11,530 nucleotides of DNA from Nitrospirae bacterium CG2_30_53_67 (lineage in GTDB: Bacteria > CG2-30-53-67), in the NCBI GenBank assembly GCA_001873285.1, contig MNYV01000110.1, positions 1-11,530 on the forward strand. The letters run 5' to 3'. A program made the translations under genes and the position numbers. Below, in pieces: positions 68 to 11,530 of the stretch; the stretch's first letter is position 1; every line of letters begins with the position of its first letter. Under the pieces are notes generated by a model. It saw only the letters and a list, made by a program, of their open reading frames with translations. It had not been told where the DNA came from and searched no databases.

Positions 68-949
68 TCATTCTTCTCGTCCGTCCTCATTCAGTATATG
101 TAAAAGATAGCGGCCGTAGTCGTTTTGGGAGAGTGGGAGGGCAAGGCGCTCAAGCTGGCCGGCGGTGATATAGCCCATCCGGTAGGCGATCTCTTCCAGG
201 CAGGCGATCTTCAAACCCTGGCGGGCCTCAATGGTCTTGATGAAGTTGGACGCCTCTTGTAAGGATTCATGCGTGCCGGTATCGAGCCAGGCCGTGCCCC
301 GCCCCAAAATCTCGACGCTCAATTCGCCCTTCTCGAGGTAGACCCGATTCAGGTCCGTGATCTCGAGTTCGCCCCGGCCGGAAGGCACTAAATGTTCTGC
401 AATCTCCACGACGTGTTCATCATAGAAATAGATCCCCGTGACCGCGTAGTGGGAGGGCGGATCCTTGGGTTTCTCCTGAATACTGATCACTTTTCCGGAT
501 GGGTCGAATTTCACAACGCCGTAACGTTCGGGGTCGTTGACCCAGTAGGCGAAGACGGTCGCGCCCAGGATTTTTTGAGCGCACCGTTGCAGCTTCTCGC
601 TCAACCCTTGCCCGTAAAAGATATTGTCACCCAGGATCAGACAGCTCGGCCCCCCCTCGACGAATTCCCGGCCGATCATAAAGGCCTCTGCAAGGCCTCT
701 CGGTTCAGGCTGTTCCGCATAACGGAGGGTGAGCCCCCACTGTTCACCGGCGCCGAGCAGATGTTGGAAGTTCGGGAGGTCGTGCGGCGTGGAGATGATC
801 AGGATCTCCCTCAACCCTGCAAGCATGAGCGTGGAGAGCGGATAATAGATCATCGGCTTGTCGTAGACCGGAAGGAGCTGTTTGCTCACGACCCGTGTAA
901 TGGGGTAAAGTCGCGTGCCGGCGCCTCCTGCAAGGATGATTCCTTTCAT
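68..949 (-). CDS. rfbA: Glucose-1-phosphate thymidylyltransferase
   Basis: RmlA/RfbA joins glucose-1-phosphate and dTTP to give dTDP-glucose, the first step towards dTDP-L-rhamnose and other dTDP-deoxy sugars. It has 293 residues, the normal length. The nucleotide-binding start [18 protein letters not shown] is perfect for the family, followed by [18 protein letters not shown] (residues 22-39), [12 protein letters not shown] (105-116), the ERYGVVKFD loop, [19 protein letters not shown], and [15 protein letters not shown]. No catalytic residue looks changed. The mutase in the first block could supply its substrate. RmlB, RmlC and RmlD are not in the window, so the final sugar is unknown; they may lie beyond base 1 or elsewhere. 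The ATG at 949 has AAGGA about 10 bases upstream, a little far. It is the last complete gene in the direction of transcription. Confidence 0.96.
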
Positions 950-989: not shown

Positions 990-2438
990 TTAATGCGCCC
1001 CTTTACCGATCAGAACCGCGGGGATGGTCTTAAACAGAAGCTTCAGATCCAGCCAGAAGGACCAGTTGTCTATATATTGCAGGTCCAGTTTCATCCATTC
1101 CTCAAATCCGATATCATTCCGGCCGCTGACCTGCCAGATGCAGGTGATGCCGGGCCGCATGGAAAGGCGCCGCCGCTGCCAGCGCTGATACTCCAGCACT
1201 TCTTTGTAGATGGGCGGCCGAGGGCCGACCAGGGACATATCACCCTTAAGCACATTGAAAAGCTGGGGCAGCTCATCAATGCTGAACTTCCGGATGAACC
1301 ACCCGACCGGTGTGACCCTCGGGTCATGGGCGATCTTGAATACCGGTCCGGTCATTTCATTTTGGTCCTTCAACTCGCCAAGATGTTTTTCGGCCCCCTG
1401 ATACATGGAACGGAACTTGTACATTTTAAATCTCCGGCCGTTCAGGCCCATTCGCATCTGGTTGAAAAGCACAGGGCCGGGCGAGGTCCCCTTGATCAGC
1501 AGGGCCACGGTCAGAAGGAGCGGAGAGAAGAATAGAATCAGCAGAAGCGAGACCAGTACATCAAATAGATGTTTGAAGATGAGTTGGACCTCATGCATGG
1601 AGGTGGTTTCAAACGACAACAATTTGAAGCCGAAAAGGTCGTGAAAAACAGGCTTGGCAATCCGGGGGTTGAAGAGGTCAAAGCGGAGGTGCGCCCGAAT
1701 CCCGGAGGTTTCACAGACCCGGATCACCTTCTCCACCAATTGGAACCAGCTCCGAGGCATGGCGATGATCACTTCGTCCACGACGTTTTCGTCCAGGATC
1801 CTGGGAAGATCGTCCACCGATCCTACCACCACGTGCCCCTCAATCTCCTCCCCTACCCGGATGGGATCCGGGTCCACGAATCCTGTGACACGCAGCCCCC
1901 ATTCCGGGTGTTCTTTAATGGCGTCCACCACCTCGATGGCCCGGGGCCCGCTTCCGATGATCAGGACGTTGCGGAAGTTGAAGCCCATGCCCCGGATATG
2001 ATGCATGACAAAGAAGGCCGCCCTTACCTTGACCGTGAGCATCGCCCCGGTCATCAGGAGAAAGATGACCGTGGTCAGCCGGCTGACATGGAGCTGCGGG
2101 AAAACATCGTGCATGAGGACCAGAATGATCATCATGGCAAGAAGGCCGGAGAGATACCCCCCCATCACCATGCCGAAGGTGCTTAACCGCGCCGACTTGT
2201 ACGCTCCGAATTGACGGAAGAAGAAGAGGGAAAAGGGGAGAATGATGACCAGCATCCAAAGATCCTCGCCGGTGAATGCCCGCTCTTCAATCACGTAAAG
2301 CTTGCCTAAGATTTCAAAAGACCGGCCGATCAGGAACTCGTTCCGGATGAGATGGGCCAGCCAGAAGGCCATGAGCTCGATGGCGACGTCGAAGGTGATC
2401 GAAATATTGGTGATCAGTTTTGCGCGTTCTCTAAGCAT
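990..2438 (-). CDS. Undecaprenyl-phosphate sugar-1-phosphate transferase (WbaP/WcaJ-type)
   Basis: A 482-residue inner-membrane enzyme that starts polysaccharide assembly by moving a sugar-1-phosphate from a nucleotide sugar to undecaprenyl phosphate. The layout is the standard polyprenyl glycosylphosphotransferase one. Four N-terminal membrane helices lie at about 14-34, 69-86, 97-118 and 128-148. A Rossmann-like domain begins NVLIIGSGPRAIEV (157-170). A fifth membrane segment (about 300-323) leads to the catalytic domain, with KFRSM (341-345), FSIDELPQLFNVLKGDMSLVGPRPP (385-409, catalytic-type Asp388-Glu389), RPGITCIWQVSGR (428-440) and DLQYIDNWS. All family-defining residues are present. 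The sugar could be glucose, galactose or another hexose; galactose or glucose would match the nucleotide sugars made upstream. It starts 47 bases after the fused sulfurylase/kinase, with GGAA about 8 bases before its ATG, and ends 40 bases before rfbA. Confidence 0.95.
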   Translation of the reverse strand: MLRERAKLITNISITFDVAIELMAFWLAHLIRNEFLIGRSFEILGKLYVIEERAFTGEDLWMLVIILPFSLFFFRQFGAYKSARLSTFGMVMGGYLSGLLAMMIILVLMHDVFPQLHVSRLTTVIFLLMTGAMLTVKVRAAFFVMHHIRGMGFNFRNVLIIGSGPRAIEVVDAIKEHPEWGLRVTGFVDPDPIRVGEEIEGHVVVGSVDDLPRILDENVVDEVIIAMPRSWFQLVEKVIRVCETSGIRAHLRFDLFNPRIAKPVFHDLFGFKLLSFETTSMHEVQLIFKHLFDVLVSLLLILFFSPLLLTVALLIKGTSPGPVLFNQMRMGLNGRRFKMYKFRSMYQGAEKHLGELKDQNEMTGPVFKIAHDPRVTPVGWFIRKFSIDELPQLFNVLKGDMSLVGPRPPIYKEVLEYQRWQRRRLSMRPGITCIWQVSGRNDIGFEEWMKLDLQYIDNWSFWLDLKLLFKTIPAVLIGKGAH

Positions 2439-2485: not shown

Positions 2486-4237
2486 TTATCCAAGAAGTAA
2501 TTCATCCTCAGGGTCGTTGGTGTCCAGATAATTTTCCCGGAGAAGATAGAGAAATATCTCCTGCGCGGCGGCCATGGGGCTGAGTTCGGATGTATCGATT
2601 CGGATTTCCGGATTCTCCGGAGATTCGTAAGGGTCGCTGACGCCTGTGAATTCGGGAATCAGACCTTTCCTCGCCTTGGCATAAAGCCCCTTCCGGTCCC
2701 GCTCTTCGCAGACTTCAAGCGGCGTAGCCACATGGATCTCGATGAAGGCCCCGTACTGCTCGATGGTTTCCCTGACGAAACGACGCGTCGCCGTATAAGG
2801 GGCGATCGGGGCGCAGATGGCCACTCCGCCGTTCTTGGTGATCTCGCTTGCGACAAAGCCGATGCGCCGTATGTTGAGGTCGCGGTGTTCCCTGGAAAAA
2901 CCCAGCTCGCTCGAAAGGTTGCGGCGCACGATGTCCCCATCCAGCAGTGTCACGGGCCTTCCGCCGGCCTCGATGAACTTGGCGTAGAGGATCTTTGCAA
3001 GGGTTGATTTCCCCGCGCCGGAAAGGCCGGTGAAGAAGAGGGTGAGCCCCTGTTTGTTCCGTTCCGGGAAAACCCTGCGAAGTTTCGCAATCACGTCAGG
3101 ATAGGAGAACCAGTTCGGAATGTCATGGTTGTGTCCCAGATGTTCTCTCAGATCCCTGTCGGTAAATTTGAGCCCGTTTCTTCCTTCCCTCTCGACCTGC
3201 TCGATCGGCAGGAATTTCTTGAGGTCCGGAACGTACCGCATCTCCTGGATGGGAATCATCTGAATTCCCAATTCGTCCTGAAACCGGCCCAGCAGGTGCT
3301 GGGCTGAGTATAAGGAATAAAATCTTTGACTGCCGTCCCGTGCTCCGGGCGGTGATGCGTGCTCGGGGCCCACAATGATATGGGTACACCCGTAGTTCTT
3401 GCGGATCACGGCATTGAGAATCGCCTCCCGCGGTCCGGCCATGCGCACGGCCATGGGGAGCAGGGAAAGCATGGCGAGGTTCGGCGGATAGTGGCGGAGA
3501 ATCGCCTCGTAACAATGCACTCGCGCAAAGTAATGCAGGTCGCCGGGCTTGGTCATACCCACGGCCGGATGCAGCAGGATATGCGCCTGGGCCTCCTTGG
3601 CCGCCTGGAGCGTGATCTCTCGGTGGATCCGATGCATGGGTTTGCTGGTATGAAAGGCCGTCACACGGCGCCATCCCAATTTGTCGAACTGCCGGCGCAG
3701 TTCCTCCGGGGTGCAGCGAAGCGTCTCAAAGTCGTAATGCAGCGGCAGTTGAATCCCCTCGATGGTTCCCCCGACGCAGGTCTGATGGACCTCTTCAAGA
3801 AGATAGCGGACGCCGGGATGCTCCCTGGAGGCGGCGCCGTAGACCTTTTCCGCTTCCTCCATTTTGTCCGGCCGGAAGATCTCCTCGATATTCAAGACGG
3901 CAAGCATGAACCCCTCCGGATCCCTCAATGCCAGATGATCTCCTATCGAGAGCTTTCCCGCGATAGGGTCCGGCACATCCAGGACGATCGGTATCGGCCA
4001 CAAGATTCCATCCGGCAGCCGCAGGGTCCGGACAACGGATTCATAGACCTCTCGGGTCATGAATCCTTTGAGCGGGGAAAACCCGCCGTTCATAAGGAGT
4101 TCAAGATCACAGATCTGTCTCGGGCTCAAGGTATGGGATGGGAAATTCTTTGCCGCTTCGTTCAGGGCCTTTGCGCGGTCAGGATCGACAATCAGATTGA
4201 CGAGTTTCGAACCATGGGGTTCGGTGAGATGGGTCAT
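2486..4237 (-). CDS. Fused sulfate adenylyltransferase (divergent)/adenylylsulfate kinase
   Basis: A 583-residue two-domain protein for PAPS synthesis: an ATP sulfurylase-like part (about 1-390), then an APS kinase (about 397-583). The kinase is intact: P-loop GLSGAGKS (404-411), LDGDIVRRNL, GFSREHRDLNIRRI, IAPY, ERDRKGLYAKA, FTGVSDPYE and a final IDT. It phosphorylates APS to PAPS. The sulfurylase part keeps the family frame: LMNGGFSPLKGFM, HPAVGMTKPGDLHYFARV and the MAGPREA segment. Its two signature motifs differ, however. Where the family has QTRNPMHRAH this protein has HTSKPMHRIH (196-205), and where the family has GRDHAGPG it has GPEHASPP (290-297). The two histidines are kept, but the Gln and Arg that hold sulfate, and the Arg of GRD, are gone. 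I read both spots directly in the DNA. Sulfurylase activity is therefore doubtful, while kinase activity is likely. The start ATG has AAGGA 7 bases upstream. It follows cysQ by 28 bases. Confidence 0.9.
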   Translation of the reverse strand: MTHLTEPHGSKLVNLIVDPDRAKALNEAAKNFPSHTLSPRQICDLELLMNGGFSPLKGFMTREVYESVVRTLRLPDGILWPIPIVLDVPDPIAGKLSIGDHLALRDPEGFMLAVLNIEEIFRPDKMEEAEKVYGAASREHPGVRYLLEEVHQTCVGGTIEGIQLPLHYDFETLRCTPEELRRQFDKLGWRRVTAFHTSKPMHRIHREITLQAAKEAQAHILLHPAVGMTKPGDLHYFARVHCYEAILRHYPPNLAMLSLLPMAVRMAGPREAILNAVIRKNYGCTHIIVGPEHASPPGARDGSQRFYSLYSAQHLLGRFQDELGIQMIPIQEMRYVPDLKKFLPIEQVEREGRNGLKFTDRDLREHLGHNHDIPNWFSYPDVIAKLRRVFPERNKQGLTLFFTGLSGAGKSTLAKILYAKFIEAGGRPVTLLDGDIVRRNLSSELGFSREHRDLNIRRIGFVASEITKNGGVAICAPIAPYTATRRFVRETIEQYGAFIEIHVATPLEVCEERDRKGLYAKARKGLIPEFTGVSDPYESPENPEIRIDTSELSPMAAAQEIFLYLLRENYLDTNDPEDELLLG

Positions 4238-4265: not shown

Positions 4266-5036
4266 CTAACCCATTAAAGAAAGATCGGAGACGGCAATGA
4301 AATGCTCGTGCTTGATGATCTTTTTGTTGTATTCGATCGGAACCTTTTTCAGGTCCACCACATGCCCTCCCGCCGCCTCGACGATGGCATGTCCCGCGGC
4401 CGTGTCCCACTCCCAGGTCGGCCCCAGCCTCGGGTAGAGATCCGCGCTCCCCTCGGCCACGGCACAGAATTTCAAAGAACTCCCTCTGGCGATCCTCTCT
4501 CTGATATTCAGTTTTTCCAGATACCTCTGCAGTTCTTCGGATGGATGAGACCGGCTTTGAACAACGACCAGGCCATCGCCGTCCGGGTTGCGGACGTGTA
4601 TCCTCACGGATTCATCGCCTCCGTTCTTTTTCCAGGCCCCTTCCTTCCTGGACGCATAGTAGAGAAGATGCTGAACGGGAACATAGATGACGCCGGCCGC
4701 CGGACGGTTATTTTCGATCAGGGCGATATTGACGGTAAATTCACCATTGCGTTTGATGAATTCCTTGGTGCCGTCCAGGGGATCGACCAGCCAGAAACGA
4801 TCCCACGTCTTTCTCTCAACGAACGGAATATCCTTGCCTTCTTCTGAAAGGACGGGGATATCGGGGTAGAGTCTGAGGAGCTCTTCGGATATGATTCTGT
4901 GGGAAACCCTGTCCGCTTCGGTCAGCGGAGACTGATCCTCCTTAAACTCAACATCAAACGTCTTCGCATATATATTAAGTATGGAGTCTCCGGCCTGAAC
5001 GGCTATATCACATACGGAGTTTATATGAATATCCAT
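4266..5036 (-). CDS. cysQ: 3'(2'),5'-bisphosphate nucleotidase CysQ
   Basis: A Li+-sensitive-type, Mg2+-dependent phosphatase of the inositol monophosphatase superfamily, 256 residues, the usual length. It hydrolyses PAP (adenosine 3',5'-bisphosphate), the by-product of sulfotransferases, to AMP; some members also act on PAPS. Family motifs are complete: SPLTEAD (residues 36-42), SEEG with the metal-binding Glu (64-67), the core DPLDGTKEF (85-93) and WEWDTAAGHAIVEAAGG (208-224, Asp211). PAP inhibits sulfotransferases, so its place between the sulfotransferase and the PAPS-forming enzyme makes sense as product clearance. The ATG at 5036 follows AAAGGG with a short spacer. The PAPS-synthesis gene starts 28 bases after the stop. 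An inositol monophosphatase role is possible on fold alone, but DPLDGTKEF and the neighbours favour CysQ. Confidence 0.93.
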   Translation of the reverse strand: MDIHINSVCDIAVQAGDSILNIYAKTFDVEFKEDQSPLTEADRVSHRIISEELLRLYPDIPVLSEEGKDIPFVERKTWDRFWLVDPLDGTKEFIKRNGEFTVNIALIENNRPAAGVIYVPVQHLLYYASRKEGAWKKNGGDESVRIHVRNPDGDGLVVVQSRSHPSEELQRYLEKLNIRERIARGSSLKFCAVAEGSADLYPRLGPTWEWDTAAGHAIVEAAGGHVVDLKKVPIEYNKKIIKHEHFIAVSDLSLMG

Positions 5037-5054: not shown

Positions 5055-5663
5055 TTATGCCCGGTTACGATAAAGATTATGGTCCACAACGCCCGCCATC
5101 TTTGTCTCATCGAGATGCCCGCCCAGGAAACGATTGATCTTTCCGGAAACGGTCAGAGGATCATGAATGACGTCACGATGGTTGAGGTAGAGAGCCTCGA
5201 ACCTCTCGTCCGATTCCAACATGGCCTGAACTTCCCGAAGGTGTTTTTCATAACTCCGGATCATTTTCCCATCATCCTTCGGGTCAAACGGTACGCCGCG
5301 GTGTTCGAGCATCTTGTTTTGAGAAGCCATGACTTCTTTGAGATCTCGGTTCAAAAACACGACTTTATAGGCGTGGCCGGAAGGAAGATCTTTCAGAAGA
5401 TAGGAAATCACCTTGACGGTCTTGCCCCGCAGGTCCCCAACCCAGGTCTTGTCCTTTCCCTTGGCCAATTCCTTGACTCTTTCCAGTTCATAATACCCTT
5501 TGGGGTTGTCGGTATCCGCCGTCCGCTCCCCGTCGGAAGCGATCGGAAGGCCGCCGGCCTCCAGCATCTTCATCAGCATGGAGGTGCCGGATCTGGGCAG
5601 ACCCGAAACCACGATCACGGGCCGGCCGTATCTTATCCTTCTGACAAAATTCCTGAATTTCAT
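5055..5663 (-). CDS. PAPS-dependent sulfotransferase family protein
   Basis: A protein of 202 residues from the ATG at 5663. Strand one and the 5'-phosphosulfate-binding loop are clear: PVIVVSGLPRSGTSMLMKML, with PRSGTS at residues 23-28. The 3'-phosphate-binding segment is VVFLNRDLKEVMASQ, with Arg106 and Ser114. The conserved stretch DNPKGYYE (61-68) follows the first helix. This is the shape of small bacterial cytoplasmic sulfotransferases that move sulfate from PAPS to an acceptor; the acceptor cannot be read from sequence. The frame stays open upstream to 5798, but that part runs across the antitoxin gene, and similarity to the family begins at RPVIVVSG, so I chose 5663. Its ribosome binding site is modest (GGAG, 11 bases away). 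It starts 22 bases after the antitoxin stop, and cysQ starts 18 bases after its own stop. The PAPS and PAP enzymes directly downstream strongly support the function. Confidence 0.85.
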   Translation of the reverse strand: MKFRNFVRRIRYGRPVIVVSGLPRSGTSMLMKMLEAGGLPIASDGERTADTDNPKGYYELERVKELAKGKDKTWVGDLRGKTVKVISYLLKDLPSGHAYKVVFLNRDLKEVMASQNKMLEHRGVPFDPKDDGKMIRSYEKHLREVQAMLESDERFEALYLNHRDVIHDPLTVSGKINRFLGGHLDETKMAGVVDHNLYRNRA

Positions 5664-5685
5664 GGGCCGCCACTCTCCATGCTGA

Positions 5686-5988
5686 TCATTTTTCTTCCGG
5701 TAATTTTTCCGAAGTTTTCCCAAATTTCCGGCGAGGCAGCAGACCAGGCGGATACATGTCAAACATAAGGTTCCAATATGCCCATGACCTGGGATCAAAA
5801 ACTCCGGTCGGGGGATTTTTTAATACATCCAGAAAGTCGTCATCTGAAAAATACTTTCTTGCTGCCGCTATATCCTTTATCGTGCCGTAAACCATGACCT
5901 GAGCAAGAAAACGTTTTGGATCTTTTATTGCCTCTGCCGGAGATTTCCACCATATCAAACGGACGGCAATATCTTCCAGTGTTTTCAT
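5686..5988 (-). CDS. Small partner protein of the nucleotidyltransferase (putative antitoxin)
   Basis: A 100-residue cytoplasmic protein with no signal peptide or membrane segment. It begins MKTLEDIAVRLIWWKSPAEA, continues LAQVMVYGTIKDI and has a C-terminal FDPRSWAYWNLMF followed by LPRRKFGK. I recognise this layout (LIWW-SP-EA near the start, FD-RSWAYW and P-PP-LP-R near the end) as that of a conserved small protein usually encoded beside AbiEii-type nucleotidyltransferases, where it is taken to be the antitoxin. Its biochemistry is not known to me. In pairs I recall, the small gene comes first; here it follows the enzyme. The ribosome binding site is weak: the stop region of the upstream gene contains TGAGGA, but 14 or more bases away. 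A 180-base stretch across it (5761-5940) counts about 43% G+C, against about 59% in the mutase gene. Confidence 0.75.
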   Translation of the reverse strand: MKTLEDIAVRLIWWKSPAEAIKDPKRFLAQVMVYGTIKDIAAARKYFSDDDFLDVLKNPPTGVFDPRSWAYWNLMFDMYPPGLLPRRKFGKTSEKLPEEK

Positions 5989-6005: not shown

Positions 6006-6680
6006 TCAGGTTCCAACAGGAGTCAATCCGCCCGGCAAGAAAGATATTTCAGGAATCTTCTTGATATCTACCTTTCGGACTTCTGAGATCAAAAACGATT
6101 GAATAGGGTCTGATAATGTGGACAGGTCTCCGTCACCAAAATAGCTCAATGCCTTCAAACTCAAAAAAGGATTAAAAGGCTCACCATATACGGCCTTTGC
6201 CGCCGACAAAACTGCCGGCAGATCTAAACCTGCTTTTAGAATGGCTGCAATATCCTGATAATCCTTGGCCTCTGCCCGGTCCTGTACGACCTTGATCTTG
6301 GTTGCGGCAGCATCCAGTAAGGATGCAACAAAAAAACCCGGCCCTTTAACTCTGTCCGGATCGGCCACACGGCGCATGTTCAAGCCGCCAAAGAAAGAGG
6401 CCTTAACAAATCCTCCGCGATCTACCAGGCAAACTAAAGTATCTGTCTTGGATTGGATTCGCTCCGCTCTCTTGAGAAATGGGATCTGTCGTTCCAATTC
6501 ATCCGGTGTGAATCCCCGGTTAGAAAAGAAATCAAAGTCAACAGAAATTCTATGGCCCAATCGGAGCGCCAAAGCTGTTCCACCATATAGAACAAAATCG
6601 TCCGGCATATCTTTCATCTCGGGCCATATTGCCTGCTGCGCCTCTGTAAGTATCTCAGGATGCGGTTTGAGTCTGGTCAT
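6006..6680 (-). CDS. AbiEii/AbiGii-family nucleotidyltransferase (toxin-like)
   Basis: A 224-residue member of the AbiEii-type nucleotidyltransferase family, the class that supplies the toxin in type IV AbiE systems. The diagnostic motif is clear: YGGTALALRLGHRISVDFDF, with GGT at residues 33-35 and the metal-binding D-x-D at Asp48 and Asp50. Further on, ATKIKVVQDR and AKDYQDI (Lys128, Asp140) match the conserved second half of the fold. Known AbiE toxins modify RNA with nucleotides (tRNA or GTP-binding is reported for family members); the target here is unknown. The ATG at 6680 is the first after an in-frame TAA, with GGA 5 bases upstream. A 145-base non-coding gap (6681-6825) separates it from the antiterminator, and its small partner starts 17 bases after its stop. 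It has no evident role in polysaccharide synthesis, and the module is AT-richer than its neighbours, so it was probably acquired separately. Confidence 0.82.
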   Translation of the reverse strand: MTRLKPHPEILTEAQQAIWPEMKDMPDDFVLYGGTALALRLGHRISVDFDFFSNRGFTPDELERQIPFLKRAERIQSKTDTLVCLVDRGGFVKASFFGGLNMRRVADPDRVKGPGFFVASLLDAAATKIKVVQDRAEAKDYQDIAAILKAGLDLPAVLSAAKAVYGEPFNPFLSLKALSYFGDGDLSTLSDPIQSFLISEVRKVDIKKIPEISFLPGGLTPVGT

Positions 6681-6825: not shown

Positions 6826-7389
6826 TTATACCGGTTCGACCTCATCCATGGAGATCTCGGCCGAAACGGACTGCTGCAGCATATCCACGGATATAATCAG
6901 CCGGTGGCGTCCCCGTCTCTCCACCAGGATCCCCTCAATCCCCTGAAGGGGTCCGGCCTTGACCCTGACCCGGCTCCCTTCCTTGATATAGGGGTGCCCG
7001 CTGATCAGCCGGTCGCTCTCCACCATCTTATGCACCGCATCAATCTGGCTTTCAGGGATGGCGTAGAGTTCCGTGGATGTCTTGCCGATGATGCGGACCA
7101 CTCCTTTGACCTTCAATACCTCAAGGATCCGTTCCCTTTCAAGCGCAATCCTCACAAAAAGGTAACCGGGAAAGAGCGGAAGTAGAATGAGCTTCTTCCG
7201 GTCCCTTCTCCGGCTCAAGGTTTCGTAGAGCGGAAGAAATACCTCCACGCTCTTCCCTTTGAGTTCGATCTCGACCTTTTTCTCGTGGCGTGAACGGATA
7301 TGCACGGCATACCAGTTCTTCACGATGATCTTTTGAGATTCGTCCTCGGTATTTTTTTTGGTTTCGATCAGTATTCCGGTGTCAGCCAT
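6826..7389 (-). CDS. NusG-like transcription antiterminator (RfaH/UpxY/LoaP type)
   Basis: A specialised NusG paralogue of 187 residues. After a ~24-residue charged, non-conserved N-terminus comes an NGN domain (about 25-125). It opens with NWYAVHIRSRHEKKVE, continues with VEVFLPLYE and the hallmark PLFPGYLFVR (71-80), and ends near VVRIIG. A C-terminal KOW domain follows (about 136-180: EGSRVRVKAGPLQGIEGILV). Such proteins bind RNA polymerase and let it read through long polysaccharide operons. They are commonly encoded at the head of the operon they control. AAAAGG lies 5 bases before the ATG. A housekeeping NusG is unlikely, since it would normally sit beside secE and ribosomal protein genes and carry better conserved linkers. 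Its place at the head of the second block, behind a hairpin-bearing gap, suggests it acts on the sulfation and chain-initiation genes downstream. The target site is not established. Confidence 0.87.
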   Translation of the reverse strand: MADTGILIETKKNTEDESQKIIVKNWYAVHIRSRHEKKVEIELKGKSVEVFLPLYETLSRRRDRKKLILLPLFPGYLFVRIALERERILEVLKVKGVVRIIGKTSTELYAIPESQIDAVHKMVESDRLISGHPYIKEGSRVRVKAGPLQGIEGILVERRGRHRLIISVDMLQQSVSAEISMDEVEPV

Positions 7390-7561: not shown

Positions 7562-8932
7562 TCAGACCAGTTTCTCCAATTCGCTATCCACAAAACCCCT
7601 GATTTCATCCAGCCTCTTTTGGGTCTTTGCCTCAAACCTCATAACCAGGACCGGCTGGGTGTTGGATGCCCGGATCAACCCCCATGCGCCGTCGCCGAAA
7701 AGAATCCTCACGCCGTCCACGTCTATGATTTCATAATCTCGTGCAAATCGTTCCCTGGCCTTGTCCACAATGCCGAACTTTTTCTCTTCGGAACATTCCT
7801 TCCGGATCTCAGGCGTGGAGAAGGTCACCGGCAGGTCGGAGAGAAGTTCCGAAATCCTTTTCCCGCTCTTCTTCAGGATCTCGATGAACCGGCAGCTCGC
7901 ATAGATGGCATCGTCGTATCCGAAATAGCGGTCCGCAAAAAAGATATGCCCGCTCATCTCGCCGCCGAGGGCCGCATGGGTCTCCTTCATCTTCTGCTTG
8001 ATCAGGGAGTGGCCGGCCTTCCACATGACGGCATGGCCTCCGTTCTTTCGAATATCGTCATACATGACCTGAGAGCACTTGACCTCGGAGACGAACGTGG
8101 CGCCGGGTTTCTCCTTTAAAATTTCTCTTGAGAAGAGGACCATCAACTGGTCTCCCCAGATGATCTTACCCTGGTCGTCTATCACGCCGATCCGGTCCGC
8201 ATCACCGTCATAGGCAATCCCGGCATCGGCCTTATCCTTTAATACCCTCTGGATCAGAGATTTTAAATTCTCAGGAACCGTGGGGTCCGGGTGATGGTTC
8301 GGGAACCTCCCGTCCACCTCGCAGAATAGAGGGGTAACACGGCATCCCAGACCGGCCAGGAGCTCGGGCGCGACGGTTCCGGCCATGCCGTTCCCGGCAT
8401 CCAGCGCCACATGGACCGAAGGGAGTTGTGCCAGTCCTTCAAATAGTTTCCTTACATAATGAATATATTCCGGTATGATCGCCGTTCCCGAACACGTGCC
8501 CTGGCCGCTCTCGAATCTGCCGGAAGCGATCACGTCATAGATCTCCCGGATCTGTTCTCCGTGCAGGGTATCCTTGCCCACACAGACCTTGAAGCCGTTG
8601 TAGTCCGGAGGATTATGGCTGCCGGTCACCATCAAGCCTCCATCCACATCAAGATGAAATAATGAAAAATATAGAAGCGGCGTAGGGCAGGCCCCGATGT
8701 CCACGACGTGGATCCCCGTGGAAACCACGCCCTGGATCAGGGCGGAGGCCAGATCCCCTGAGCTTAAACGCCCGTCCCTTCCGACCGATATCTTGCGAAG
8801 GCCCTTCTTCACAGCAAGGGTCCCGTAGGCCTGTCCGATCCTGCGGGCGACCTCCGGGTCCAGGTCCTGTCCGATGATTCCACGGATATCGTAGGCCCGG
8901 AAGATTCCTGGAGAGACTGGATGGTTCTTCAT
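7562..8932 (-). CDS. Phosphomannomutase/phosphoglucomutase
   Basis: An alpha-D-phosphohexomutase of 456 residues, the usual length of AlgC/ManB-type dual enzymes. It interconverts hexose 6-phosphate and hexose 1-phosphate (glucose and/or mannose) through a phosphoserine. All four signature loops are present: the catalytic TGSHNP with Ser105 (residues 103-108), the Mg2+ loop DGDADR (242-247), the sugar-specificity loop GGEMSGH (323-329) and the phosphate loop RASNTQP (421-427). GGEMSGH and the N-terminal FRAYDIRGI are the pattern of PMM/PGM enzymes rather than glucosamine mutases. Glucose-1-phosphate from it could feed both the UDP-glucose branch upstream and RfbA at the other end of the window. 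Its ATG overlaps the galE stop (ATGA). It ends the first compact gene run; a 172-base gap with a strong hairpin follows. Whether glucose or mannose is preferred cannot be read from the sequence. Confidence 0.95.
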   Translation of the reverse strand: MKNHPVSPGIFRAYDIRGIIGQDLDPEVARRIGQAYGTLAVKKGLRKISVGRDGRLSSGDLASALIQGVVSTGIHVVDIGACPTPLLYFSLFHLDVDGGLMVTGSHNPPDYNGFKVCVGKDTLHGEQIREIYDVIASGRFESGQGTCSGTAIIPEYIHYVRKLFEGLAQLPSVHVALDAGNGMAGTVAPELLAGLGCRVTPLFCEVDGRFPNHHPDPTVPENLKSLIQRVLKDKADAGIAYDGDADRIGVIDDQGKIIWGDQLMVLFSREILKEKPGATFVSEVKCSQVMYDDIRKNGGHAVMWKAGHSLIKQKMKETHAALGGEMSGHIFFADRYFGYDDAIYASCRFIEILKKSGKRISELLSDLPVTFSTPEIRKECSEEKKFGIVDKARERFARDYEIIDVDGVRILFGDGAWGLIRASNTQPVLVMRFEAKTQKRLDEIRGFVDSELEKLV

Positions 8933-9879
8933 CGGCTCTTGCCTCCTGGTCTTTTCTGATGATCCTTGAAATATGCCACGGTTTTTTCCAACCCCTCTTT
9001 CAGGGAAACACCGGGCCTCCAGCCGAGAATCCTCTCGGCTTTGCCCGCGTTCAGGGAATTCCTGCGCAGATCCCCCGGACGGGCCGGCCCATAAAGGGGT
9101 TTGTTGCCGAAGCCCGTGACCGCTGCGATCAGGTCATAGAGCTGATTGACATCGGTCTCGATTCCGGTCCCGATGTTGAAACAATCACACTCCCCTTTCT
9201 CTATGGCAAGGTAATTGGCCCGGGCCACATCCCCGGCATATACATAGTCCCGGATATAACGTCCGTCTCCATTAATCGTCGGCGTGCGCCCCTCGAGCAT
9301 GGCCTGAACGAAGATCGCCACGACCCCGGCTTCACCGAGAGGGTCCTGCCTCGGCCCGTAGACATTGGAGTACCGAAGCACCGTGTAGTTAAGACCGTGC
9401 TCCGCCTTGTAATAGGGAAGATAGTATTCCATGCAGATCTTGGTCACCCCGTAGGGGGACATGGCGGAAAAAGGAAGGCCCTCCGTAGCCGGAAGATGTT
9501 CCGTGGCGCCGTAAACGGTCCCGCCTGAGGAAGAAAAGATGACCTTCTTCACGCCGTACTTCACACAGTTCTGCAAAAGATTCACAGACCCCACCACATT
9601 GATCATGGCGTCATGCACGGGATTTCTGACCGAGTCGGCCACGCTGATCTGAGCGGCCAGGTGGTGCACCAGATCCGGCTTCTCCTTTTTGAAGACCTCG
9701 CTCAGCTTTGGAGAGCAGATATCCACCTTGTAAAACCGGGCGGCAGGATTCACGTTTTCCTTCTTACCCGAGGAGAGATCATCCACCACGACGACTTCCA
9801 GTCCGTGCTCCGCCATCACATCGGCCGCATGCGACCCGATGAATCCGGCTCCTCCTGTAATCAGCGTCTTTGACATCAT
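8929..9879 (-). CDS. galE: NAD-dependent UDP-glucose 4-epimerase (GalE-type)
   Basis: An extended short-chain dehydrogenase of 316 residues. It has the glycine-rich NAD site TGGAGFIGSH (residues 8-17), the acidic VVDDLSSG after the second strand, HHLAAQ, the SSSGGTVYG strand, and the catalytic YGVTK (Tyr143, Lys147). The substrate domain shows LRYSNVYGPRQDP and IRDYVYAGDVARA. GalE-type enzymes interconvert UDP-glucose and UDP-galactose. This subgroup (about 310 residues, YGPRQDP) also includes enzymes acting on UDP-GlcNAc/GalNAc or uronates, so the substrate is inferred. Two ATGs occur in tandem at the start. AAGGA lies 4 bases before the first (9879) and 7 before the second (9876), so either may be used. 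The stop codon overlaps the ATG of the mutase in an ATGA arrangement, which indicates translational coupling. Confidence 0.88.
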   Translation of the reverse strand: MMSKTLITGGAGFIGSHAADVMAEHGLEVVVVDDLSSGKKENVNPAARFYKVDICSPKLSEVFKKEKPDLVHHLAAQISVADSVRNPVHDAMINVVGSVNLLQNCVKYGVKKVIFSSSGGTVYGATEHLPATEGLPFSAMSPYGVTKICMEYYLPYYKAEHGLNYTVLRYSNVYGPRQDPLGEAGVVAIFVQAMLEGRTPTINGDGRYIRDYVYAGDVARANYLAIEKGECDCFNIGTGIETDVNQLYDLIAAVTGFGNKPLYGPARPGDLRRNSLNAGKAERILGWRPGVSLKEGLEKTVAYFKDHQKRPGGKSR

Positions 9880-9901
9880 TCATTCCTTTCCGTATTCCTG
9901 G

Positions 9902-11203
9902 TCATCCTCTCCCGATGCATGAATAGATGAACCCGAGTTTCCTCATATATTGGGGATCGTAGATATTCCTTAGATCCACGACAACAGGCGAACGAAGCAG
10001 CGCCTTGATCTTCTCCATATCGAGCATGCGGAACTGGTTCCATTCGGTGATGAAGATCAAGGCATCCGAGCCCTGTGCCGCGTCGTAGGCATTCTCACAG
10101 TACTCCACGTTCTTCAGCATCTTCTTCGCCCCTTCCATGGACTCGGGATCAAAGACCTTGACCCCCGCCCCCTTTTTCTGAAGCCCCTCGATGATAACCA
10201 GGGAAGGCGCGTCCCTCATGTCGTCCGTATTGGGCTTGAAGGCCAGTCCCAGAATCCCTATCGTCTTCCCCTTAAGTTCGCCCACCGCCGACTCGATCCT
10301 GGCGACCATCCTTTGCTTTTGTTCTTCATTGACTTCAATGGCCGACCGGACGATCTTCAGATCCATGGAATTCCGCTCTGCAAGCTGCACCAGGGCCTCC
10401 GTATCCTTGGGAAAGCACGACCCTCCGAAACCCGGGCCCGGATGAAGGAATTTGGATCCGATCCTTCCGTCCAGCCCCATGCCTTTGGCCACGTGGTGGA
10501 CGTCGGCCCCCACCTTCTCGCAAAGGGCGGCGATTTCATTGATGAAGGAGACCTTGGCCGCCAGGAAGGCGTTGGAGGCATACTTGATCATCTCGGCGCT
10601 CTCCACGGAGGTAAAGACCATGGGTGTCTCGATCAGGAACAGGGGCCTGTAGAGATCCCGCATGATGGCCTGCGCCTGGTCACTCGACGTCCCGATGACC
10701 ACGCGGTTGGGACGCATGAAATCCTCGATGGCAGACCCTTCCCTTAAAAACTCGGGGTTCGAAACCACATCGAAGGTGCAGGGTTCGGCCTGGTGTTTCC
10801 GGATGATCCCCTCCACCCATTTTCCGGTCCCCACAGGGACCGTGCTCTTATCCACAATCACCTTGTACCCGTTCATGTACCGGCCGATGTCCTCGGCTAC
10901 ATCCTCTACGTAGGAAAGGTTTGCCGAACCATCGCCGTGCCTCGGCGTCCCCACGGCAATAAAGATCACCAGAGATTTTTCCACGGCGGACTTCATATCT
11001 GTCGTGAAATTGAGTCTCCCTTCCCGGACGTTTTTTTTCACCATGTCTTCGAGACCCGGCTCATAGATAGGGATCTTCCCCTGATTGAGGGCATCGATCT
11101 TTGCCTTGTCTTTGTCCACACAGGTCACGTTCATTCCGAACTCGGAAAAACAGGTCCCGGAAACCAACCCGACGTATCCGGTTCCGATGATGGAAATATG
11201 CAT
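9902..11203 (-). CDS. ugd: UDP-glucose 6-dehydrogenase
   Basis: The enzyme oxidises UDP-glucose to UDP-glucuronate with two NAD+ in the cytoplasm, supplying uronic acid for surface polysaccharide. From the ATG at 11203 it is 433 residues, normal for the UgdA/TuaD/RkpK family. Visible motifs, in order: the N-terminal NAD-binding GTGYVGLVSG (residues 7-16), STVPVGTG (120-127), NPEFLREGSA (149-158), the central helix around NAFLAAKVSFINE, the catalytic loop PGPGFGGSCFPKDT with nucleophile Cys263, and GLAFKPNTDDMRDAPS in the C-terminal domain. No key residue is missing. The upstream epimerase would use its product (UDP-GlcA to UDP-GalA), and the downstream phosphohexomutase would feed the glucose-1-phosphate pool from which UDP-glucose is made. 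The next gene starts 22 bases after this stop. Function is close to certain; the symbol ugd is used in the general sense. Confidence 0.97.
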   Translation of the reverse strand: MHISIIGTGYVGLVSGTCFSEFGMNVTCVDKDKAKIDALNQGKIPIYEPGLEDMVKKNVREGRLNFTTDMKSAVEKSLVIFIAVGTPRHGDGSANLSYVEDVAEDIGRYMNGYKVIVDKSTVPVGTGKWVEGIIRKHQAEPCTFDVVSNPEFLREGSAIEDFMRPNRVVIGTSSDQAQAIMRDLYRPLFLIETPMVFTSVESAEMIKYASNAFLAAKVSFINEIAALCEKVGADVHHVAKGMGLDGRIGSKFLHPGPGFGGSCFPKDTEALVQLAERNSMDLKIVRSAIEVNEEQKQRMVARIESAVGELKGKTIGILGLAFKPNTDDMRDAPSLVIIEGLQKKGAGVKVFDPESMEGAKKMLKNVEYCENAYDAAQGSDALIFITEWNQFRMLDMEKIKALLRSPVVVDLRNIYDPQYMRKLGFIYSCIGRG

Positions 11204-11208
11204 AGCAA

Positions 11209-11213
11209 CTCCT
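11209..11213 (-). promoter_or_regulatory. Ribosome binding site that sets the start of ugd
   Basis: A perfect AGGAG lies 5 bases upstream of the ATG at 11203 and directly follows the TGA stop of the upstream epimerase (11217-11215). It supports the ATG at 11203 over the in-frame TTG five codons earlier (11218). The layout suggests translational coupling of the two genes. Confidence 0.75.
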
Positions 11214-11214
11214 C

Positions 11215-11530
11215 TCAAGAGACAAGCTCAGTCTTGTTTTCAAGATACCACTCCACAAACCTGCTGATCCCCTCTTCAATCTTCACCTTGGGATCATAAC
11301 CGAGCAGTTCCCTGGCCCGGGTGATATCCGCAAATGTGACGGGGACATCGCCGGGTTGATCCGGCATATTCCGGATGACTGCATCCCTGCCGAGGTTCTT
11401 TTCAATCAATGCGATGAGATCTCTCAGTGTAATGACAGACTCCTCGCCGAGGTTGATCACGGCATATCCGAGGGGGCGGTCCAGAGCAAGAAGAATGCCG
11501 TCCGCCAGATCATCAATATATGTGTAATCC
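11215..11530 (-). CDS. UDP-glucuronate 4-epimerase-like protein, C-terminal part (5' end outside window)
   Basis: This is the C-terminal ~104 residues of an extended short-chain dehydrogenase (NAD-dependent sugar-nucleotide epimerase). The frame is open to the window edge, so the start and the Rossmann domain are missing. The visible part begins DYTYIDDLADGI, the usual 'R-D-F/Y-T-Y-I-D-D' substrate-domain motif, followed by VINLGEES. Near the end come QPGDVPVTFADI, LLGYDP and a final EGISRFVEWY. The QPGDVP-T-AD and EG-RFVEWY pattern is typical of UDP-glucuronate 4-epimerases (CapI/LspL type), which interconvert UDP-GlcA and UDP-GalA in the cytoplasm. The next gene makes UDP-GlcA, which supports the call. 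The TGA stop lies 11 bases before the dehydrogenase start and merges into its ribosome binding site, so the two are probably co-transcribed. A related UDP-sugar epimerase is the main alternative, because the catalytic half cannot be seen. Confidence 0.82.
   Translation of the reverse strand, partial: DYTYIDDLADGILLALDRPLGYAVINLGEESVITLRDLIALIEKNLGRDAVIRNMPDQPGDVPVTFADITRARELLGYDPKVKIEEGISRFVEWYLENKTELVS

Follow-up and report, generated by a model that had tools for sequence, protein, structure and literature searches.

The window, by which we mean the whole analysed stretch of 11,530 nucleotides from Nitrospirae bacterium CG2_30_53_67, encodes a fusion that is probably an APS kinase whose N-terminal sulfurylase-like half no longer makes APS and which provides PAPS for polysaccharide sulfation. 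Normal ATP sulfurylase activity is likely absent from the fusion. Comparisons with relatives suggest as a new feature that the changed pocket is kept rather than decaying, unlike the drifted pocket of the Thiobacillus denitrificans group. The features of the window are listed in Table 1.

Table 1. Features of the fusion protein and of its gene neighbourhood in the window.
Feature	Position (nt)	Strand	Residues	Remarks
Sulfurylase-like/APS kinase fusion ORF	2486-4237	-		ATG start, 583 aa
PUA_2 domain of fusion			6-163	Pfam, 170 bits
ATP-sulfurylase domain of fusion			172-388	Pfam, 231 bits
PUA_2 + ATP-sulfurylase-like half of fusion			1-390	
APS kinase domain of fusion	2519-3052	-	396-573	All motifs present
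PF01583 APS_kinase match in fusion			396-548	198.1 bits
HTSKPMHRIH	3623-3652	-	196-205	In place of QTRNPxHxxH
GPEHASPP	3347-3370	-	290-297	In place of GRDHAGPG
RMAGPREA	3422-3445	-	265-272	Kept pocket segment
CysQ, 3'(2'),5'-bisphosphate (PAP) nucleotidase	4266-5036	-		TIGR01331, 317 bits; 28 bp upstream of fusion
Sulfotransferase	5055-5798	-		Sulfotransfer_3 / Sulfotransfer_1; probable PAPS consumer
Polyprenyl glycosylphosphotransferase (WcaJ/EPS type)	990-2438	-		TIGR03025, 417.8 bits; downstream of fusion
RmlA, glucose-1-phosphate thymidylyltransferase	68-949	-		TIGR01207, 488.5 bits
UpxY-type NusG antiterminator of polysaccharide operons	6826-7389	-		NF033644, 131.7 bits
Phosphomannomutase/phosphoglucomutase, NAD-dependent epimerase, UDP-glucose 6-dehydrogenase	7562-11218	-		Sugar-nucleotide genes

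The fusion was aligned using phmmer with Penicillium 1i2d, Aquifex 2gks and T. denitrificans 3cr8. HTSKPMHRIH and GPEHASPP sit exactly on QTRNPMHRAH and GRDHAGPG/GRDHASPG, which confirms the initial annotation, where both ATP sulfurylase (Sat) motifs were described as replaced within positions 3265-3653. The Sat signature QxRN is lacking, residues 196-199 being HTSK, and GPEHAS stands at 290-295 instead of GRD(H/P)AG; compared with canonical Sat, Gln196 is changed to His and Asn199 to Lys. In a docking model of the human enzyme, arginines R421 and R522 lie against the sulfate (PMC11697783). The HxxH of Sat (H202 and H205) and the RMAGPREA segment are intact in the fusion, as had been observed initially. 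Judging by the human motifs, R421 and R522 presumably correspond to S198 and P291 of the window fusion. The description of the fused APS kinase as intact also holds: the P-loop GLSGAGKST, LLDGDIVR (DGD) and the later motifs are present, and G404, S406-G407, G409-T412 and D433-D435 are invariant or nearly so across the alignment of relatives. Chance was rejected as an explanation, and so was a sequencing error at both motif sites, which the initial annotation had considered, because dozens of independent genomes carry these substitutions too.

The whole fusion matches NF004040 (bifunctional sulfate adenylyltransferase/adenylylsulfate kinase) with 831.8 bits (cut-off 669), and also exceeds the cut-offs of TIGR00339 (Sat; 384 bits, cut-off 323) and TIGR00455 (APS kinase; 193.5 bits, cut-off 138.7). 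NF004040 does not tell both kinds of protein apart, and therefore automatic annotation presents the window fusion as bifunctional. An AlphaFold2 monomer model built with 32 relatives has a mean pLDDT of 87.1, mostly above 90 in the Sat half. The best structure matches of the model are the whole fungal enzymes of Penicillium, 1I2D/1M8P (Z 52.9-53.9); the truncated yeast enzyme 1r6x gives Z 51.5 over 379 residues, and 3CR8 gives Z 41 with 47% identity over 493 aligned residues. In the predicted structure the sulfurylase fold is retained, and fold alone says nothing on activity.

A protein-pattern scan yielded 17 loci, all with FHTSKPMH, a sample that is biased because FHTSKPMH itself served as one search pattern. 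Surveys without this bias, conducted with the profile and the protein, covered the window's phylum, one class, one order and one phylum sample. The fusion profile scored above the cut-off in 6 of 8 genomes of the window's phylum, and matches were found in 65 of 369 genomes of the class of a gammaproteobacterial carrier, in 12 of 54 genomes of the order and in 18 of 299 of the phylum sample. The fusions fall into several motif types: canonical QTRNP/GRDHAGP, HTSKP/GxEHAxPP, QTSKPMHRLQ/GPKHAYPP, QTTQPMHRLE, QPPGP/QPAGV and further odd ones, including QARQP of T. denitrificans. Two fusions from another family of the window's class (L051 and L053, in genomes G006 and G007) carry ITRNP or TTRNP together with GRDYAGP; the Gln and the His of GRDH are changed there, the Arg and Asn are kept, and the lineage is apart from the window's clade.

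In trees built with the motif columns removed, the window fusion belongs to a distinct clade of 42 rows sharing (H/Q)TSKP-type and GxxHAxPP motifs, with SH-aLRT support of 99 in the Sat-half tree and 100 in the full-length tree. The separate sulfurylase clade with conserved HTSKP/GPEH-type motifs, suggested initially as one option, is thus recovered, and no description of it was found in the open-access literature. The 3CR8 group (4 rows) lies apart from the 42-row clade in both trees. However, the AU tests do not reject uniting the two (p-AU 0.632) or placing all 51 non-canonical rows in one clade (p-AU 0.111). The motif change needs five steps on the full-length tree; because the AU tests leave these joint clades unrejected, we claim a distinct clade and give no count of independent losses. 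Two clade fusions have an in-frame TAG, one near residue 174 (L117 3928-5808, G110) and the other before residue 66 (L120 974-2521, G338); these may be assembly errors, pseudogenes or otherwise.

Relative to canonical enzymes, the clade has fixed, or almost fixed, the substitutions R198S, N199K, H236Y, R241H and G297P. The mean column entropy of the Sat half is 1.28 in the clade versus 1.30 in canonical fusions. For the clade as defined by the tree, and with the five motif-defining columns left out, the pocket has an entropy of 0.57 versus 1.35 for the domain (P=0.0001); in the HTSKP-type subset the pocket value is 0.26. The 3CR8 group has 0.86 in the pocket versus 0.78 in the domain, that is, no excess conservation, and 300 random clade quartets with equal mean domain entropy gave pocket values of at most 0.68, all below that group. 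With just four rows in the 3CR8 group, the contrast in pocket conservation is suggestive. As judged from codon comparisons, the Sat-like half is under purifying selection, with dN/dS about 0.03-0.09 where estimable and synonymous sites near saturation. Pseudogene decay of the window gene was ruled out because of the open 583-aa frame, the low dN/dS and the conserved pocket. The initial annotation was right about the loss of the sulfate-contacting side chains. The pocket, however, is strongly conserved in its changed form, so that calling it "dead" would go too far.

The source of APS was sought in the genomes carrying the fusions. If the domain is inactive, APS had been expected to come from another gene, and the search for a second sat in the window's genome did reveal a single-domain canonical Sat (QTRNP, GRDHAG), located on one contig with the dissimilatory AprA. 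The fusion is the only APS kinase above the cut-off in this genome. Among the 76 fusion genomes compared, a set enriched for the window's clade, an independent sulfurylase is present in 40 of the 43 genomes with non-canonical fusions versus 3 of the 33 with canonical QTRNP fusions (Fisher p about 2e-14, a value that ignores shared ancestry). Dissimilatory APS reductase AprA was found in 29/43 and 0/33 genomes, respectively. Shared ancestry could explain much of this contrast because independent evolutionary events are few: only 2-3 phylogenetically independent pairs are available, not enough to support a test. Both QTRNP and GRDHAG are kept in each of the 20 further separate Sats that were read. 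Five genomes (G020, G133, G250, G348 and G637) have no single-domain Sat but possess CysD and CysN; in G133, G250 and G348, which carry a QTTQP fusion, the CysN frame found along with CysD is 649 aa long and could represent a CysNC fusion that brings an APS kinase of its own. Three genomes with non-canonical fusions (G017, G019 and G338) gave no Sat, CysD or CysN above threshold; their fusion contigs are short and genome completeness is not given. In genome G104, two AprA genes and a canonical Sat occur together with two different non-canonical fusions (L112 and L136; NTSKP and HPRHL). In a window relative (L036; G005/G009), the canonical Sat contains an in-frame TAA close to the end.

The fusion, cysQ, sulfotransferase and EPS genes are all on the same strand, with a gap of 18 bp between cysQ and the sulfotransferase gene. 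Since cysQ, a sulfotransferase and EPS genes lie nearby, the probable role of the fusion is to provide PAPS for polysaccharide sulfation; this is the natural reading of the context, with a polysaccharide as the putative acceptor. The adjacency of cysQ and the fusion also occurs in three relatives (L005, L006 and L026). In Thiotrichaceae-like carriers, the fusion is situated between a polysaccharide tyrosine autokinase and the PrsT/PrsK/PrsR genes of an exosortase locus, and in other carriers it neighbours rml genes, glycosyltransferases and, in some cases, sulfotransferases. Zero counts in the per-genome sulfotransferase search are uninformative because the search missed the window's own sulfotransferase. 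A 100-aa ORF (5686-5988, reverse strand) overlaps the 5' end of the sulfotransferase frame, whose actual start may be further inside. The EPS cluster also includes an ORF for an AbiEii-like nucleotidyltransferase (6006-6680, reverse strand; Pfam, 56 bits), and no AbiEi partner was found among the window ORFs scanned.

The proposed pathway would begin with APS made by a separate sulfurylase, which in the window's genome would be the canonical Sat on the AprA contig; some other genomes would use CysDN instead. This ready-made APS would be phosphorylated to PAPS by the kinase half, the neighbouring sulfotransferase would spend PAPS on sulfating a polysaccharide from the surrounding cluster, and CysQ would clear PAP, the by-product of that step. 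The sulfurylase-like half probably keeps the multimer assembled. The strong conservation of the pocket in its altered form makes ligand binding probable, and a retained ligand-binding role is plausible on this evidence. The ligand is probably a nucleotide or sulfonucleotide, namely APS, PAPS or ATP, and the pocket would then serve in regulation or in the delivery of APS. More tentatively, the domain could have been re-specialised to sense sulfonucleotides or to dock APS, a few fixed substitutions having turned a catalytic pocket into a conserved regulatory one; it would then couple the making of PAPS for coat sulfation to the dissimilatory APS pool. We regard this as possible rather than likely. 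If true, this would invert the arrangement in the fungal enzyme, in which the dead kinase is the PAPS sensor.

What counts against an APS kinase without APS synthesis is that the protein keeps HxxH, RMAGPREA and the fold, that a working enzyme would also show a conserved pocket, and that no other sulfurylase was found in three genomes. HxxH, RMAGPREA and these three genomes, together with the retained T197, P200, G290 and H293-A294, the constraint on the Sat half equal to the canonical one and the low dN/dS, favour a domain that is still an ATP sulfurylase tuned to local PAPS synthesis, in which Lys199 and His196 (and His241) replace the charge of Arg198 and Arg291. However, both sulfate-facing arginines are absent clade-wide, and in parts of the clade the kinase persists although HxxH has lost its second histidine (QTSKPMHRLQ, QTTQPMHRLE) or the motif is largely gone (QPPGP, QPAGV). 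The separate sulfurylases in 40 of 43 genomes also speak against this explanation, which we consider quite unlikely. A pocket repurposed for another reaction or oxyanion, such as APS hydrolysis or phosphorolysis or adenylylation of another anion, would agree with the five fixed substitutions on a conserved background, a pattern resembling re-specialisation and not decay. Nevertheless, apart from PAPS metabolism and EPS, the context hints at no substrate or partner gene, and the motif drift in sub-lineages (QTTQP, QPPGP) speaks against one indispensable chemistry throughout the clade. We consider such a repurposing very unlikely.

Following the proposal made for T. denitrificans 3CR8, the domain could also be a structural remnant that does no more than stabilise the multimer and whose pocket is irrelevant. 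This is a sub-case of the preferred reading as far as missing APS synthesis is concerned and differs from it on the pocket. It has a known precedent in 3CR8, and a common clade of both types was not rejected (AU p=0.63), but the pocket of the clade is far more conserved than the domain, an excess that the T. denitrificans group does not have, and we hold this option to be unlikely.

The preferred reading, an APS kinase with a sulfurylase-like half that no longer makes APS, has consequences for annotation. Although NF004040 names such proteins bifunctional, the fusions of 43 of the 76 genomes in the clade-enriched set are probably without the first activity, and annotation of this kind misleads metabolic reconstruction of sulfur bacteria. 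The carriers are bacteria that mostly make or consume APS through separate enzymes. The clade lends itself to a clean test of how a catalytic pocket can become a non-catalytic one that stays conserved, and it suggests that uncultured sulfur-metabolising bacteria have sulfated exopolysaccharides.

Among known systems, the bifunctional Sat/APS kinases (Aquifex 2GKS; NF004040/PRK05537) share with the window fusion a family model that matches it over the full length, but the fusion has other residues at the active site of the first activity. Fungal ATP sulfurylase (Penicillium 1I2D/1M8P) has the same domain order and fold. In the fungal enzyme the active domain is the sulfurylase and the kinase-like domain serves as a regulatory PAPS site, so the roles are reversed relative to those proposed here. 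The two-domain APS kinase of T. denitrificans (PDB 3CR8), reportedly the work of Gay, Segel and Fisher in 2009, likewise has a Sat-like domain N-terminal to an intact APS kinase, and both proteins have lost QTRNP and GRDHAG. Its motifs differ from those of the window fusion (QARQPMHRAQ, GGEHQPDGG), and it also lacks RMAGPREA and HxxH, which the window fusion keeps; the pocket of its four-row group is not conserved, in contrast to the strongly conserved pocket of the window's clade. Papers citing 3CR8 refer to a sulfurylase-like domain in APS kinase thought to stabilise the hexamer. The APS kinase of Entamoeba histolytica is also fused to a sulfurylase-like domain, catalytically silent and reported to enhance kinase activity (PMC13213808); unlike the bacterial window fusion, it is eukaryotic, dimeric and mitosomal, and the tree excludes its sequence. 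The mirror image of the fungal enzyme drawn in the initial annotation thus fits in kind but is not a new idea: an APS kinase with an inactive sulfurylase-like domain is already known, because T. denitrificans 3CR8 and the Entamoeba APS kinase precede the window fusion.
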